Shown here: in pieces, positions 1,751 through 34,739 of the stretch
Layout: every line of letters begins with the position of its first letter
Numbering within the stretch: position 1 is the first letter of the stretch
NCBI GenBank assembly: GCA_009782175.1
Contig: WRKR01000033.1
Coordinates: 1 to 34,739, forward strand
Direction of reading: 5' to 3'
DNA length: 34,739 nt
From: Cystobacterineae bacterium
GTDB taxonomy: Bacteria > Myxococcota > Myxococcia > Myxococcales > Myxococcaceae
Program-made: the position numbers and the translations under genes
Notes under the pieces: model-generated
Databases searched by the model: none
The model's input: only the letters and a program-made list of their open reading frames with translations
Told to the model about the DNA's origin: nothing

Positions 1751-4432
1751 ATGAAGGCGTTGAGCGTGTGGGTTGGACTTTTTGGACTTTCGGCCTTTGC
1801 AAACCCTCTTCCACCCGCAGAAGCAATGGCAGAGCCTCCTTTGCCTTCGCAGTCCACACCACCGGAGGAAGCCTCTGGGCCGCCCCAGGCAACTTCTGAG
1901 CAGCCTCAGGAAGCCTCGTTGCCTCAGCTGAGCAAAAGCCCTGTCCTGCTTGAGTCTGCCCCGGCCACCTTCCCTCTTGAAATGGAGGCGGAGCAAAAAA
2001 GCGGCACCGTCATATTGGAGTTGGAAATTGATGCAGAGGGGGGGGTCCGCAAGGTGGTTGTTTTGGAAAGTGCAGGCCCGGCCTTTGACAAGGCCGCTGT
2101 GGACGCTGCGTGGAAATACCGCTTCTCCCCCGCAGAGGTGGACGGAAAACCCGCCCCCGTCCGCATCCACTACCGCTCGGAATTTTTCTTCCGCCCTCAG
2201 GCAGAAACACGCCCTATCGCCGGCCCCATGGGAGCGTTTTCCGGAGAGCTTGTCGAGCGCGGCACACGCGCCCCCATTGCACAGGCCCTCGTCGTCCTGG
2301 GTGAAGGCGAAAACGCCCAGGAAGCCTTCAGTGACGAAGAAGGCCGCTTCTCTTTTGCACAACTTTCGCCCGGCACATGGAAGCTTTCGGTTTCTTCCGC
2401 TGAGCATGAGCTCTTTTCTGCCGAGGAAACCATCCTCCCGGGAGAGCGCACGCAGGCGCGTTATTTCATCCTGAAAAAAACATATGGCGCCTTCCAAACC
2501 ACGGTGCGCGGCACCAGGGACAAACGTGAGGTTTCTCAAGTCAGCCTCCAACAGGAGGAAATACGCCTTATTCCCGGCACCCAAGGAGATGCTTTTAAAG
2601 TGGTGCTCAACTTGCCGGGAGTGGCTCGCTCTGCTTTCTCCATGGGCATGCTTGTTGTGCGCGGCTCCCGCCCCAATGATACGCGCGTCTATATTGATGA
2701 TGTCCATATTCCGCTCCTCTTCCACTTCGGCGGCCTCTATTCCACCGTCAACTCTTCGCTGCTGGAGCGCTTGGATTTTGAGCCCGGCAACTTCGGCGCC
2801 GCCTATGGACGCAGCACGGGCGGCCTTGTTAAAGGAAATATACGCCCCCCGGCTTCAGACGGCTTGCATGGCTATGTCGACATAAACCTCATCGATACTT
2901 CCGTGCTTCTCGAAGGGCCTGTGGGCAAGGGCTGGTCCGTTTTGGCCAGCGGACGAAGGAGCTATATTGACGCCTTGTTGCCCCTCGTTATGAAGTCAGA
3001 CGCACTGAAGTTTACGGTGGCCCCTCGCTATTATGACTATCAGCTGCGCGCAGAGCACCTCTCTGAAGACAAAAAAAGCCGCTTCTTCGTTTTCTTCTTC
3101 GGCTCAGATGACAAAATTGAGTTGCTCATGCCCAATGCAACGGCTGACTTGGAAGGACGAAACAGCTTCGGCAACGCTATACGTTTTGGTCGCCTTGCCG
3201 TGGGGTGGGAGCGACGTTTTTCAAACCAGCTCTCCTTTAAAACACGCAGCTCCCTGGGTTATGACGTTATGCAAATAGCTCTGGGGGATGACATGTTTAT
3301 GAAAGGGACACAATATCCCATCACCACCCGGAATGAGTTTGGCTTCACCTTAAGCGAGCGCACAACCTTGCGCGTGGGGGCTGACTTCTCTCTCAAACCC
3401 ATTTCTGCCAACGTCCAATTTATAAGTTTTCCGAAATTTAACCAAATTCCGGACCCCATGTTTTCCAGGCAGCTGATCAGCGCAAAAGAAAATTATTTCT
3501 TCTTTGAGCCTGCCGCCTATGCAGAGGTGCAGCACACCCCCTTCAAAGGCTTTCAAGTGGTAGGAGGCTTGCGCGCTGACTATAACAGCCACATTAACAA
3601 AGCCTGGGTGGACTTCAGGCTTGCCCTCTCTCACACTTTTGCCGATCGCTTTAAACTCAAAGGGGCTGTGGGGCTTTTTCACCAACCACCGGATTATATA
3701 AATGGCCAAACGTCCATCGCTTTCGGCGACGTCAACTTAAAACCTGAAGGCTCCGTGCAAACCAGCCTCGGCTTGGAAGTGAGCCTCACAAAAGCCCTCA
3801 GCCTGGACATTCAGGTTTATGCCAAAAATGGTTTTAACATTGCCCGCCAAACCCTGGGCGGCAACTCCCAGGCGGACTTGAGTGTGGATGACAGCACCAA
3901 GCCATGGGCAAGCTTTGGCTCTTCGCGCGCCCAGGGCATGGAGCTTCTGCTTCGACACCAACTCACGGACCGCTTCTTCGGGTGGATTGCTTATAGCTTG
4001 TCACGCACGGAAGTGACGGACGTCCTCTATGGCGGCTATAGGCGAAGCTCCTTTGATCAGCCTCACAATTTAATTGTGGTTGCCAGCTATAAACTCCCTT
4101 GGAATTTTATTGTTGGGGGCAAACTGCGTTATACCAGCGGCGCCCTCACCACACCCGTCGTCGACACCATTTTTGATGCCAATGGCAACTATTATTATCC
4201 CCTCAATGGCCGCCCCAACAGCGTGCGCCTGCCGGACTTCTTCCAGCTGGACATCCGCATAGACAAGCGCTTCGTCTTCAAACAGTGGATGCTTTCTCTC
4301 TATGTGGACATTCAAAATGTCACCAACCGAAAAAACCCGGAGGTGGCCAACTATAACTATGACTATAGCAAGCGCACCTATATTAGCGGCCTCCCCATCC
4401 TCCCCACTCTTGGCATAAGAGGAGAATTTTGA
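1751..4432 (+). CDS. TonB-dependent outer-membrane receptor with N-terminal TonB-like domain
   Basis: This 893-residue protein probably imports a ligand across the outer membrane using TonB energy. Order of parts: signal peptide (about 1-18); Pro/Glu-rich linker (about 19-65); a TonB C-terminal-like domain (about 72-148, with GTVILELEID, AVDAAWKYRFSPA and KPAPVRIHYR); a carboxypeptidase-regulatory-like beta-sandwich (about 163-242); a plug domain (about 250-365, with TTVRGTRDK, LNLPGV, VVRGSRPNDTRVYIDD and YGRSTGGLV); then a beta-barrel to the C terminus. The barrel ends in a typical strand (LGIRGEF) with terminal Phe. A lipoprotein gene follows after one base, so the two are probably an operon. 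The substrate cannot be read from sequence. The fusion of a TonB-like domain to its own receptor is uncommon outside deltaproteobacterial lineages. Confidence 0.85.
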   Translation: MKALSVWVGLFGLSAFANPLPPAEAMAEPPLPSQSTPPEEASGPPQATSEQPQEASLPQLSKSPVLLESAPATFPLEMEAEQKSGTVILELEIDAEGGVRKVVVLESAGPAFDKAAVDAAWKYRFSPAEVDGKPAPVRIHYRSEFFFRPQAETRPIAGPMGAFSGELVERGTRAPIAQALVVLGEGENAQEAFSDEEGRFSFAQLSPGTWKLSVSSAEHELFSAEETILPGERTQARYFILKKTYGAFQTTVRGTRDKREVSQVSLQQEEIRLIPGTQGDAFKVVLNLPGVARSAFSMGMLVVRGSRPNDTRVYIDDVHIPLLFHFGGLYSTVNSSLLERLDFEPGNFGAAYGRSTGGLVKGNIRPPASDGLHGYVDINLIDTSVLLEGPVGKGWSVLASGRRSYIDALLPLVMKSDALKFTVAPRYYDYQLRAEHLSEDKKSRFFVFFFGSDDKIELLMPNATADLEGRNSFGNAIRFGRLAVGWERRFSNQLSFKTRSSLGYDVMQIALGDDMFMKGTQYPITTRNEFGFTLSERTTLRVGADFSLKPISANVQFISFPKFNQIPDPMFSRQLISAKENYFFFEPAAYAEVQHTPFKGFQVVGGLRADYNSHINKAWVDFRLALSHTFADRFKLKGAVGLFHQPPDYINGQTSIAFGDVNLKPEGSVQTSLGLEVSLTKALSLDIQVYAKNGFNIARQTLGGNSQADLSVDDSTKPWASFGSSRAQGMELLLRHQLTDRFFGWIAYSLSRTEVTDVLYGGYRRSSFDQPHNLIVVASYKLPWNFIVGGKLRYTSGALTTPVVDTIFDANGNYYYPLNGRPNSVRLPDFFQLDIRIDKRFVFKQWMLSLYVDIQNVTNRKNPEVANYNYDYSKRTYISGLPILPTLGIRGEF

Positions 4433-19000: not shown

Positions 19001-19141
19001 ATAACGTTGAGGTGTTTGGAAAATTCTGAACGCAATTTTGGGGGCTCACGGAAGGATTCCGGACGCCTCTTTTTGAGGCGGCGAATTGCAGCTTAGGGCA
19101 ATGTAATGGGTGTTTGCGGAGGTGTTTCTAGACACTAATAT

Positions 19142-19228
19142 GAGGTTCGCTTCGCTCACCTGACTCCACTCCGCACAACATGCGAGAGAGCAAGCTCTCT
19201 CGCATGCTGTGCTCCGTTCCGTCCCGCC
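19142..19228. repeat. Left arm of 87-bp inverted repeat
   Basis: Pairs with 19367-19453 with about five mismatches. Each arm contains an inner palindrome around GCGAGAGAGC-AA-GCTCTCTCGC, so either arm can also fold alone. The 138-bp spacer between the arms holds the second copy of the A/T-rich palindrome. Confidence 0.85.
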
Positions 19229-19325
19229 GCCGCCGACGTGGCAAAAGTAGTTGGTGCAGCAAGGAAGAAGCTAGGAAGCAACCGACGATGAGCCCCGCAG
19301 GGCCCTCGGAGAGTGGGTTTTTTTG

Positions 19326-19357
19326 GTTACTTTTTTTGTCCAGACAAAAAAAGTGAC
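19326..19357. repeat. 32-bp A/T-rich palindrome, copy 2
   Basis: Inverted copy of 18715-18746, with the matching flank AACCAAAAAAA on its outer side. Both copies together bracket the region 18715-19357. Confidence 0.75.
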
Positions 19358-19366
19358 TCGCCGGGA

Positions 19367-19453
19367 GGCGGGACGGAGTGGAGCACAGCATGAGAGAGAG
19401 CTTGCTCTCTCGCATGTTGTGCGGAGCGGAGTCAGGTGAGCGAAGCGAACCTC
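19367..19453. repeat. Right arm of 87-bp inverted repeat
   Basis: Near-exact reverse complement of 19142-19228. It ends just before the block that is shared with the second leader locus. Confidence 0.85.
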
Positions 19454-19479
19454 AACCTCCCCTCGCTGAAGGCGAAAAA

Positions 19480-19652
19480 AGCCGGGCCGCAGGCCCACTC
19501 TGCAAAACAACCTTGCCTGAAAGGCAGAAAAACCCTTCGCCGGAGGCGACAAAAAAAACCCTATTTAAAATGCCCGCCGCGCAGGCGAAAAAACAAAACC
19601 AACAGCGAAAAAACTCTCCTGAAATATTTTGCTTCCTCAAACAAACGGAGAA
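19480..19652 (+). repeat. Conserved block upstream of leader RNA, copy 1
   Basis: This block matches the reverse complement of 34462-34603 almost base for base, with small insertions. Shared pieces include AGCCGGGCCGCAGGCCC, TCTGCAAAACAACC, CCCTTCGCCGGAGGCGAC, CCCTATTTAAA and CTTCCTCAAACAAAC. The conserved unit at both loci therefore runs from these palindromes through the promoter and leader to the gene. Confidence 0.8.
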
Positions 19653-19661
19653 TGTTATATT
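19653..19661 (+). promoter_or_regulatory. Probable extended -10 promoter of the leader RNA, copy 1
   Basis: TGTTATATT has the extended -10 form TGnTATATT. The same element (TGCTATATT) is at the equivalent position in copy 2. No good -35 hexamer is seen at 17 bp, as is common for extended -10 promoters. Transcription would start near 19668. Confidence 0.5.
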
Positions 19662-19667
19662 GCTTTT

Positions 19668-19914
19668 GCTGCGCAAAAAACGCAGCTGGGCTTAGTAGCT
19701 CAAGTTAAGTTTAAAGGTGGCGGGAGCCACCGGGAGATGCCGAGTGGCTCGTTGCTTTTGAGCCCCCGGTTTCTCCCCGGTGGCCTGAAGGGGAGGCCGC
19801 AAGGCCTGCCGGGTTTTTCCTTTAAACTTGCCGGTCTACTAACTCGTTTGGGCCACCCTGTGGGTGGTTGCGCGAGTTGCCCAGCTTCTCCCTTGGAGAG
19901 CAGCATTGCTGTTC
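19668..19914 (+). ncRNA. Structured leader RNA, copy 1
   Basis: A leader of about 250 nt ending some 26 bases before the ATG at 19941. Stems seen: 5' hairpin GCTGCG/CGCAGC (19668-19673 with 19681-19686); closing stem GCTGGGC/GCCCAGC (19685-19691 with 19879-19885, sharing two bases with the first); TTAGTAG/CTACTAA (19692-19698 with 19836-19842); AAGTTTAAAGG/CCTTTAAACTT (19707-19717 with 19819-19829); AACTCG/CGAGTT (19841-19846 with 19873-19878) enclosing CCACCC/GGGTGG; and 3' hairpin GAGCAGC/GCTGTTC (19898-19904 with 19908-19914). Copy 2 at 34212-34446 keeps the 5' and 3' sequences but forms the middle stem from different bases. I do not recognise a known RNA class. A cis-regulatory leader is most likely; a separate functional RNA is possible. 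Confidence 0.7.
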
Positions 19915-20347: not shown

Positions 20348-20623
20348 ATGAAAAACGATGAAGCCTTAAAAGGGTTGAAGCTGCTGAGCGGTGCGGTGCG
20401 CCTCAAAATATTGCGAGCGCTTGCCGATGGTGAAAAAAACGTAGGCGAGTTGGCGCGCATTGCGCGTGTGTCAAGCAGCACAGCCTCTCAGCAGCTGATT
20501 GTGCTGCGCAGAGGTGGCGCGGTTGCGAGCAGAAAAAGCTCGCCGATGGTTTTTTATTCCCTTGCTGACGAGAAAATTTCTGAACTCCTCAAAACCTTGG
20601 AGCGGCTATATGCACCGAAATAA
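20348..20623 (+). CDS. ArsR/SmtB-type winged-helix transcriptional regulator
   Basis: A 91-residue DNA-binding protein. LSGAVRLKILRALADGEKNVGELARIARVS is the typical first half of the winged helix; SSSTASQQLIVLRRGGAVASRK is the recognition helix and start of the wing, and FYSLADEKISELL closes the domain. The ELCVC metal motif of arsenic and zinc sensors is absent, so it probably responds to something other than thiol-bound metal, or is constitutive. It starts two bases after the small helical gene, with GCGGAG upstream, so both are one operon. It may regulate this operon or the second copy at 33274-34183; that is inference. Confidence 0.85.
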   Translation: MKNDEALKGLKLLSGAVRLKILRALADGEKNVGELARIARVSSSTASQQLIVLRRGGAVASRKSSPMVFYSLADEKISELLKTLERLYAPK

Positions 20624-33267: not shown

Positions 33268-33303
33268 CCCCCCTCACTCCAGTGGACTTTTCCCATATAA
33301 AAG
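33268..33303. repeat. Half-copy of the lysA-downstream hairpin repeat
   Basis: These 36 bases match the left arm and loop of 238-293 nearly exactly (CACTCCAGTGGACTTTTCCC in the centre). The right arm is not preserved. On the minus strand it encodes the last nine residues (LLYGKSPLE) and the stop of the small helical gene, so the repeat has been built into a coding 3' end. Confidence 0.75.
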
Positions 33304-33738
33304 GGTTGTTTTTTTAGGCCTGGGCTCTTCTGTAGTTGAGGGGGAAATTGAAATAGAAGTTGAAGCTAAAGCTGAGGCCTCAACTGAAGCCATGGTTGAA
33401 ACCACCATGGAAGCTTGAGCATGCGCAGCCTTTGGCTCCCACAAACTTTGGAGGAGCTGCTCCAACTCTTTGGCATATTGCGTTTTTTCAACAATGGCGT
33501 TGTCTACAAACTCGGCCAAAGCCATCAAGTGTAGCGTTGCTTCAGGTTGTCCCCTGTCCGCAAAGCGCATTGTTTCTTCCAGCTTCTTTCCTATTTTTTC
33601 TGCATAGTGCTCGCCGGATATTGCGGCCAAAGCTTCAAACTTTTCTCTTAACAAAGCAGCACCCTCAAAGCCTCTATTTTGGAGGCGCCTTAACATGCCT
33701 ATGATGGCTTCCACTTTTTCATTCTCAGTTTTGTGCAT
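33274..33738 (-). CDS. Small helical protein, family member C
   Basis: A 154-residue, soluble, helical protein. IIGMLRRLQNRGFEGAALLREKFEALAA resembles the first helix pair of members A (LEVLQNEGFEESAF) and B (LIELRIRGYWDAAS); ATLHLMALAEFVDNAIVEK corresponds to the third helix. The PGG turn is replaced by SGEHY. The tail is Ser/Ala/Thr-rich and ends in residues supplied by the 33268-33303 repeat. The ATG at 33736-33738 follows GAGGG; the frame is open to 33798 but overlaps member B. It is 22 bases downstream of B, in one operon. Function unknown. Confidence 0.65.
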   Translation of the reverse strand: MHKTENEKVEAIIGMLRRLQNRGFEGAALLREKFEALAAISGEHYAEKIGKKLEETMRFADRGQPEATLHLMALAEFVDNAIVEKTQYAKELEQLLQSLWEPKAAHAQASMVVSTMASVEASALASTSISISPSTTEEPRPKKTTLLYGKSPLE

Positions 33739-33760: not shown

Positions 33761-34183
33761 TCAACTCCAGTGAGGAGAGCCCTGAAAAGTTTCTGCAACT
33801 CCCCACGGCTTAAATTTGCTTAAGCGTTCTGTGAGCCCGGCCCACATGGCGTCCATTTCCTCTTTGGGTATTTCCGCGCTTTGTGTTTGGGCTTCCTCAA
33901 GCGCTTTGAGAAAGCACTGCAGCTCGTGGCTGAAAACCGCCAAATACTTCTTGAGGCCAAGGTGGCCTTGCATGGCGTCCAAGCTGGCTTCAGCAACCAA
34001 AGCGGCAATGCTGTGCAAATAATTTTTGCCCCCGGGCAGCTGAATAACATGCATCGCCTGGCAATAAACACTCGCCGCATCCCAATAGCCGCGTATACGC
34101 AGCTCAATAAGCTGTTGCTCCAGGGTTTCCACAACCTGCCCTTCCTCGGCATTGAGAATTGCCCCTGCTTTTTTTTCACTCAT
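33761..34183 (-). CDS. Small helical protein, family member B, behind the second leader RNA
   Basis: A 140-residue, soluble, helical protein starting MSEKKAGAILNAEEG. It shares with member A the series L-x-x-L-x-x-x-G-[FY], PGG-x-x-x-L-x-x-I, and KYL (LKKYLAVFSHELQCFLKAL). The ATG at 34181-34183 has an excellent GGAGGAGG Shine-Dalgarno. The frame is open through the leader to 34330. In the shared leader segment, however, this frame reads PSFSLGEQRCCS while the A frame reads PASPLESSIAVL from nearly the same bases, so that region is not coding. C follows in the same operon. Function unknown. Confidence 0.65.
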   Translation of the reverse strand: MSEKKAGAILNAEEGQVVETLEQQLIELRIRGYWDAASVYCQAMHVIQLPGGKNYLHSIAALVAEASLDAMQGHLGLKKYLAVFSHELQCFLKALEEAQTQSAEIPKEEMDAMWAGLTERLSKFKPWGVAETFQGSPHWS

Positions 34184-34211: not shown

Positions 34212-34446
34212 GAACAGCAGCGCTGCTCTCCAAGGGAGAAGCTGGGCGTTTGGGGAGCCAAATTTATGGCGGCCCAAACGAGTTCAAACACCGGAACATT
34301 CAGAGACCGGCAACCTTTCGGTTCCCGCATGGGCCGCCAAACCGGAGGCCGTCAGAGCGAGAAAGTGCCGCGCTACTCAGAATGCTTTCTCGTCTTCTGA
34401 ATGTTATAATGGGGTTTGATGCCCAGCTGCACTCTTTTCGCGCAGC
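34212..34446 (-). ncRNA. Structured leader RNA, copy 2
   Basis: Reverse-strand counterpart of 19668-19914. Conserved: 5' hairpin GCTGC/GCAGC (34442-34446 with 34426-34430), closing stem GCTGGGC/GCCCAGC (34421-34427 with 34241-34247), and the 3' hairpin 34212-34228. The middle is different in sequence but folds in the same places: AACATTCAGA/TCTGAATGTT (34396-34405 with 34295-34304, 10 bp perfect), CGAGAAAG/CTTTCTCG (34385-34392 with 34358-34365), a GAAA-tetraloop hairpin AACCGAAAGGTT (34312-34323) and CGTTTGGG/CCCAAACG (34273-34280 with 34247-34254). The gene start follows 28 bases after the last hairpin. Confidence 0.7.
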
Positions 34447-34452
34447 AAGAGG

Positions 34453-34461
34453 AATATAGCA
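34453..34461 (-). promoter_or_regulatory. Probable extended -10 promoter of the leader RNA, copy 2
   Basis: TGCTATATT on the minus strand matches TGTTATATT of copy 1 at the same distance from the 5' hairpin. The sequence upstream (CTTCCTCAAACAAAC) is identical in both copies. Confidence 0.5.
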
Positions 34462-34603
34462 TTCTTTGTTTGTTTGAGGAAGCAGAATATTTCAGAAGGG
34501 TTTTTTCGCCTGGCGGCGGGCAATTTAAATAGGGTTTTTTTGTCGCCTCCGGCGAAGGGTTTTTGGCAGGGGTTGTTTTGCAGAGGGGGCCTGCGGCCCG
34601 GCT
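34462..34603 (-). repeat. Conserved block upstream of leader RNA, copy 2
   Basis: Inverted counterpart of 19480-19652, containing the same short palindromes in the same order (for example CCCTTCGCCGGAGGCGAC and AGCCGGGCCGCAGGCC). Confidence 0.8.
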
Positions 34604-34641
34604 ATTTTCAAAGGAAAAAGTTTTTTTTGGGGGTGTTTTTA

Positions 34642-34739
34642 TTTTTTTCCTCCAGGGGGGGGAGTGTCGCCTCCGGCGAAGGGTTTTTTCGCCCTGCGGG
34701 CGCAGCTTGCCTTCGGCAAGTCACTTTTTTTGTCTGAAC
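34642..34739. repeat. GC-palindrome repeat module, second copy, running off the window
   Basis: Direct copy of parts of 18584-18735: GGAGTGTCGCC, the hairpins CGCCCTGCGGGCG and CTTGCCTTCGGCAAG, then the start of the A/T-rich palindrome (34720-34739). The repeat presumably continues beyond the window. Confidence 0.75.

Follow-up and report, generated by a model that had tools for sequence, protein, structure and literature searches.

The two structured leader RNAs found in the analysed window (the whole stretch of 34,739 nucleotides, contig WRKR01000033.1) belong to a known RNA class. Each leader has on its 3' side a C4 antisense RNA (RF01695), C4 being the immunity RNA of phages P1/P7, and on its 5' side the a1/b1 target of this C4, a part that resembles isrK. 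What sets these elements apart from P1 is their presence in many chromosomal copies, nearly all of which carry a private, fast-changing pair of target and antisense boxes. We are rather confident that the leaders are self-contained antisense units of the isrK/C4 type, in which C4 acts in trans on its own a1/b1, giving mutually insulated autoregulation. Such self-specific, mutually insulated antisense autoregulation is the most likely reading of the data, its regulatory effect being one that we infer.

Both leaders are present at 19668-19914 (plus strand) and 34212-34446 (minus strand), as described in the initial annotation, and both are strongly structured, copy 1 folding at -135.1 kcal/mol (z -5.6) and copy 2 at -114.7 kcal/mol (z -4.9), with 0 of 200 shuffles equally stable in either case. 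They can be aligned over their full length, flanks and ends being conserved and the middle different. The features of the two units are as follows.

19656-19661, plus strand: unit 1, -10-like TATATT, 7 bases 5' of the 5' hairpin and kept in copy 2; no sigma-70 promoter here in the consensus scan
19668-19686, plus strand: unit 1, 5' hairpin and start of the isrK-like part (fold; isrK model match 19668-19754)
19692-19698, plus strand: unit 1, target box a1, TTAGTAG
19707-19717, plus strand: unit 1, target box b1, AAGTTTAAAGG
19779-19857, plus strand: unit 1, C4 antisense RNA (RF01695), 39.2 bits, E 3.5e-6, gathering score 45, canonical C4 fold
19819-19829, plus strand: unit 1, antisense box b', CCTTTAAACTT, in the C4 hairpin loop
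19836-19842, plus strand: unit 1, antisense box a', CTACTAA
19941-20345, plus strand: unit 1, small helical protein of 134 aa, type A (family I), dN/dS 0.44 over 4 copies
20348-20623, plus strand: unit 1, ArsR-like HTH protein of 91 aa (Pfam HTH_5, E 1.1e-10)
34453-34458, minus strand: unit 2, -10-like TATATT, from the sequence; no sigma-70 promoter here in the consensus scan
34426-34446, minus strand: unit 2, 5' hairpin, from the fold
34414-34419, minus strand: unit 2, target box a1, TCAAAC
34396-34405, minus strand: unit 2, target box b1, AACATTCAGA
34262-34344, minus strand: unit 2, C4 antisense RNA (RF01695), 37.2 bits, E 1.1e-5, gathering score 45, canonical C4 fold
34295-34304, minus strand: unit 2, antisense box b', TCTGAATGTT
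34284-34289, minus strand: unit 2, antisense box a', GTTTGA
33761-34183, minus strand: unit 2, small helical protein of 140 aa, type B1 (family I), dN/dS 0.56 over 7 copies
33274-33738, minus strand: unit 2, second small protein of 154 aa, type B2 (family I)

The stems that had been named beforehand (TTAGTAG/CTACTAA, AAGTTTAAAGG/CCTTTAAACTT, AACATTCAGA/TCTGAATGTT, AACTCG/CGAGTT and CGTTTGGG/CCCAAACG) all appear in the predicted structures, and the idea of a selected structured leader in front of unknown genes, which keeps its pairing as the sequence changes, is supported. The middle stems, taken to be covarying, do retain their pairing but are not ordinary structural stems: TTAGTAG/CTACTAA together with AAGTTTAAAGG/CCTTTAAACTT in unit 1, and AACATTCAGA/TCTGAATGTT in unit 2, are target/antisense pairs, that is, a1·a' and b1·b' duplexes formed in cis. 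As for the promoter-like element, the sigma-70 consensus scan of the window gave no match to it in either unit, whereas in sibling copies a TTGACA box and a CTTAAT-like element can be seen.

The description of the leader as a two-copy element was an undercount. In the genome to which the window belongs (2.70 Mb, 65 contigs) C4 stands in front of a gene at least 17 times, in 16 cases as a complete unit, and fragments occur besides; with a further 18 copies studied in two sibling genomes, this makes 35 copies in all and 33 complete units. The assembly probably hides more units, since most copies sit no more than about 250-500 bases from where a contig ends; downstream genes at the edges of contigs C32, C61, C34 and C35 likewise point to hidden ones. 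It should be noted that GC-rich palindromic dispersed repeats (CTTCGCCGGAGGCGA; GGTTACTTTTTTTGTCCAGACAAAAAAAGTGAC; GAGCCCCGCAGGGCCC) lie upstream of most C4 units, for example at 19128-19600 and 34480-34739 of the window, and that contigs break in or near them.

At curated gathering thresholds Rfam returns one tRNA in the window and nothing else. With scores of 39.2 and 37.2 bits the window copies fall below the RF01695 cut-off of 45 and are therefore missed by a standard scan, which taken alone would lend false support to a new class. The E-value scan matched C4 in 12 of 12 copies and, at the 5' side of several of these 12, either isrK (RF01394) or c4-a1b1 (RF03163). Three sister copies in the same genome exceed the RF01695 cut-off (C31, C14 and C35, with 45.8, 45.5 and 45.2 bits), as do two copies of the sibling genome G002 (up to 49.1 bits), and none of 14 control genomes has a match over the curated cut-off. 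The isrK model matches the 5' part of unit 1 (19668-19754) from end to end with 22.9 bits (E 0.0055; cut-off 50). The earlier statement that no known RNA class has this layout was wrong, since the element matches C4 and isrK. A new class unrelated to C4, such as a riboswitch, could appeal to the missing gathering-level match in the window copies and to downstream genes of no recognised family, but it is already largely refuted, and in our view extremely improbable, given the C4 matches across copies, three of them above cut-off in the window's genome, the canonical C4 fold and the P1-like order of boxes.

Folded in isolation, the 35 C4 domains adopt the C4 fold (G2_C27 in a shifted form): about 15 pairs make up the closing stem, which is accompanied by a tetraloop hairpin and by a CCGG...CCGG hairpin bearing b', while a' stays single-stranded. 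The first two bases of nearly all domains, at the closing stem, are GG or GA. The initial annotation had suggested looking for covarying homologues in this and related genomes, and the C4 stems do covary: in an alignment of 29 domains 97.1% of stem cells are paired, as against at most 56% in slid controls, and 12 of the 24 stem pairs have changed on both sides. An intrinsic terminator of the Gifsy-1 isrK kind in the linker was considered and rejected, because no consistent T tract follows the linker hairpin (T fraction of 0.23 in the tail, background 0.24).

To assess specificity, each a' and b' was matched against the upstream regions of all 35 copies. When box positions are not fixed, the own unit offers the best combined fit in 32 of 35 cases, the exceptions including the copy on C12. 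With located boxes, the own a1/b1 is the best fit in all 33 complete units, at a median gap of 7.2 kcal/mol to the next-best; since this second test locates the boxes by their own match, the first is the fairer one. The (a',b') pairs of the 33 complete units are all distinct, the complementary run found upstream has a mean length of 10.1 bases for b and 6.6 for a, and the a1-b1 pair of unit 1 occurs nowhere else in its genome (a genome-wide search for this unit only, exact matches). At the level of sequence, both the matching of the boxes and their mutual specificity are established. The C12 copy (L105, C12:31292) has a C4 and a downstream gene and no recognisable cognate a1/b1, and is a candidate trans-only C4. 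This copy would fit the alternative that C4 RNAs act mainly in trans on other RNAs, of incoming phages or the host, and that a1/b1 only tame the precursor, a mode of action proposed for the multi-copy, highly expressed RNAs with variable a' of Acinetobacter baumannii (PMC5320573). We think this improbable, as an exactly matching own target is kept in 33 complete units and the a1-b1 pair of unit 1 is unique in its genome (one unit, exact matches).

The boxes also change faster than their surroundings. Between close paralogues (8 non-overlapping pairs, hand-picked from a list) a boxes differ at 28%, b boxes at 18% and the remainder at 6.4% of sites; the boxes are about 3-4 times as divergent as their surroundings, and the odds ratio, with box counts halved because both strands change together, is 4.1 (p 9e-9). 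Such variability has the appearance of a specificity code and not of neutral compensatory change. Selection against cross-talk, as in P1/P7 heteroimmunity, would give such divergence, mutation bias being another possible cause, and we propose that the boxes may be driven apart because many units coexist in one cell.

Behind nearly all units lies a clear small ORF of 103-182 aa (with an ambiguous start at G1_C205). Types A, A2, B1, B2 and E can be aligned and form a divergent family (I), D and F likewise a second (II), with no detectable relation between I and II, so that homology of the two is not supported; types C, G and H stand apart from both. The two genes behind the window's leaders, originally assigned to one unknown family, do differ, yet their proteins can be aligned as members of one divergent family (24% identity). 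Behind type A an ArsR-like HTH protein is encoded, and this is the only one of the downstream proteins tested with a Pfam match over the curated cut-off or a significant PHROGs match; neither icd or ant nor any toxin family was matched in Pfam or PHROGs. Searches gave no relatives of type E in phage records and none of types A and E in IMG/VR, and the B1 protein found no match in a scan of named genomes. Among 60 relatives, the family I profile matches only the three genomes of the genus. Values of dN/dS between 0.2 and 0.56, depending on the family, mark the genes as coding and moderately constrained. Helical structures are predicted by AlphaFold2 (mean pLDDT 71 and 78), and Foldseek found nothing significant in the PDB for the family I model. 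Several otherwise different downstream proteins (G2_C5, G0_C28, G1_C94, G1_C205 and the window's B2 protein at 33274-33738) have a C-terminal tail that contains a short [IV]xYF- or LLYGK-like motif, after which proline-rich sequence often comes.

No phage genes were recognised around the units examined, and the other genes of the window include TonB receptors, serS, gpsA and an exopolysaccharide flippase; in one TonB-receptor-like protein (1751-4429) TonB C-terminal and carboxypeptidase-regulatory-like domains are placed N-terminally. Searches for RF01695, whose filters lose weak matches, picked out the same three genomes, all belonging to a single genus, at each taxonomic level: 3 of 96 in the family, 3 of 145 in the order and 3 of 195 in the phylum. 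With part of SerS as query, the top match among named genomes was Myxococcus (63% identity), which identifies the organism as a myxobacterium. The genomes of this genus (G000, G001, G002) measure 2.1-2.7 Mb, and nearly all others listed in the family 4-14 Mb; the small-genome genus has nonetheless expanded the C4 RNA and its genes.

Truncated and chimeric copies occur on C15, C56, C60 and C1. Two of these (L013 on C56 and L055 at C60:4874) have in common a chimeric stretch (GATACCGTCTTYTTCGTCAAGCTTTTTTGGGG...), which takes the place of the leader beyond the 5' end of the latter; in L006 (C15:58245) a C4 lacking the 5' part adjoins, on the opposite strand, an apparent IS110-type transposase ORF recognised by eye; and L081 (G002 C5:79014) joins a 5' hairpin and a1 region, without C4, to another small gene. 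The truncated and chimeric copies, and the phage nature of the C4 system, would suit decaying prophage remnants devoid of present function. We consider this quite unlikely: pairing is kept in every complete unit despite fast sequence change, the genes are under moderate constraint, and phage genes were not recognised at the units examined.

No second target is found at the start of the genes. In the 220 bases after C4 own boxes have no advantage over foreign boxes (p 0.49 for b', 0.24 for a'), and the longest runs, 5.3 and 4.6 bases, are near the null values of 5.28 and 4.38, whereas the same test applied to phage P1 as a positive control recovers the a and b boxes of AF234172, a2/b2 included. 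An a2/b2 target at the downstream genes was rejected on these grounds, and the mode in which C4 would control the gene is hence not given by P1. This result also bears on the proposal that the units are antisense-RNA addiction or selfish modules, similar to type I toxin-antitoxin systems, with a harmful protein, C4 as antidote and private boxes that prevent mutual silencing. Dispersed multi-copy units, short genes and private antisense boxes fit this scheme, as does Icd of P1, which is encoded behind C4 and inhibits cell division (PMC8198154). The lack of an antisense site at the gene start, of any toxin family match among the downstream proteins, and the ArsR-like regulator behind type A speak against it, and we regard it as unlikely, if less so than the preceding alternatives.

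For the preferred reading, self-specific autoregulation, the following working mode can be envisaged. A unit consists of 5' hairpin, a1, b1, linker hairpin and C4 with b' and a', followed by one or two small genes, and transcription would start at the 5' hairpin. By analogy with P1/P7, where RNase P yields a C4 of about 77 bases that begins with GG, C4 (71-80 bases) would be released by RNase P at the GG that opens the closing stem, and the released C4 would act in trans, via a'/b', on a1/b1 of transcripts of its own unit. Nascent a1/b1 could be bound either by a ready-made C4 of the same unit or, later, by their own b'/a'. Own cis pairing of a1/b1 with a'/b' would hide the C4 fold and leave the mRNA standing, while a ready-made C4 sitting on a1/b1 of a new transcript would let the C4 of that transcript fold and be cut out; the downstream gene would then probably be turned down, in the manner of the phage P4 CI RNA at its upstream site SeqA. 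Each C4 would regulate only its own unit, amounting to heteroimmunity inside one genome. The structure predicted for the full transcript is dominated by the a and b duplexes, with the C4 stem nearly absent at a mean of 0.2 pairs; masking a1/b1 raises this mean to 2.8 pairs, the rise being seen in only about half of the copies. In the last large stem, the 3' strand of the closing stem of C4 is bound by bases that lie farther downstream, so that this stem competes with the C4 fold.

These results place C4 in a myxobacterial lineage, where it is numerous, has no recognised phage context and carries a unique matched pair in each complete unit. The 33 natural orthogonal RNA pairs make antisense specificity rules and the evolution of heteroimmunity directly testable, and they give a handle on helical protein families so far found only in this genus. 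More tentatively, a bacterial lineage may have turned phage C4 heteroimmunity into a private-address network, with about 20 units on one chromosome autoregulating lineage-specific small genes through an upstream target only, under diversifying selection against cross-talk; the units may even be new RNA-insulated selfish or addiction modules.

C4 has been listed for Proteobacteria and phages (PMC2864571), and a limited check of the open-access literature found no earlier record of C4 from myxobacteria and no account of units whose a1/b1 match their C4 and vary along with it, or of these downstream genes. The closest relative by class is the immI region of P1/P7 (RF01695), annotated in the P1 record AF234172 as a1, b1 and C4 followed by a2, b2 and icd. 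The order promoter, a1, b1, C4, small gene is shared, and so are the closing stem, tetraloop hairpin and b' hairpin of C4 and the complementarity of a'/b' to a1/b1. Unlike immI, the units described here lack a2/b2 at the gene start, icd and ant, occur in many copies with no recognised phage context, and have longer b boxes (mean run of 10.1 bases versus 7-8 in P1/P7). With respect to copy number the nearest parallel is A. baumannii AB5075, where Group 1 sRNAs comprise 21 C4 homologues on one chromosome, apparently processed from longer transcripts, highly expressed and variable in a'; that report, as far as consulted here, names a' alone as variable and describes no cognate a1/b1 (PMC5320573), whereas here both boxes vary jointly with their targets and protein genes follow. 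The isrK - orf45 - anrP region of the Salmonella prophage Gifsy-1 (RF01394) recalls the 5' part of the units: isrK is in part complementary to a processed RNA encoded directly behind it (PMC4825925), and in unit 1 the 5' part fits the isrK model and is likewise complementary to the C4 behind it, presumably a processed RNA too. It differs in score (22.9 bits for unit 1, cut-off 50), in its intrinsic terminator and in its genes. In satellite phage P4, finally, the CI RNA is a processed antisense RNA whose own transcript contains a complementary site, SeqA, farther upstream; it works through transcription termination and has an additional downstream site, SeqC (PMC4825925). Although SeqC and termination are described for P4, and in the units presented here the upstream site alone is seen, the upstream complementary site in the own transcript, a likeness drawn by description, makes the CI RNA the model for the working mode proposed.
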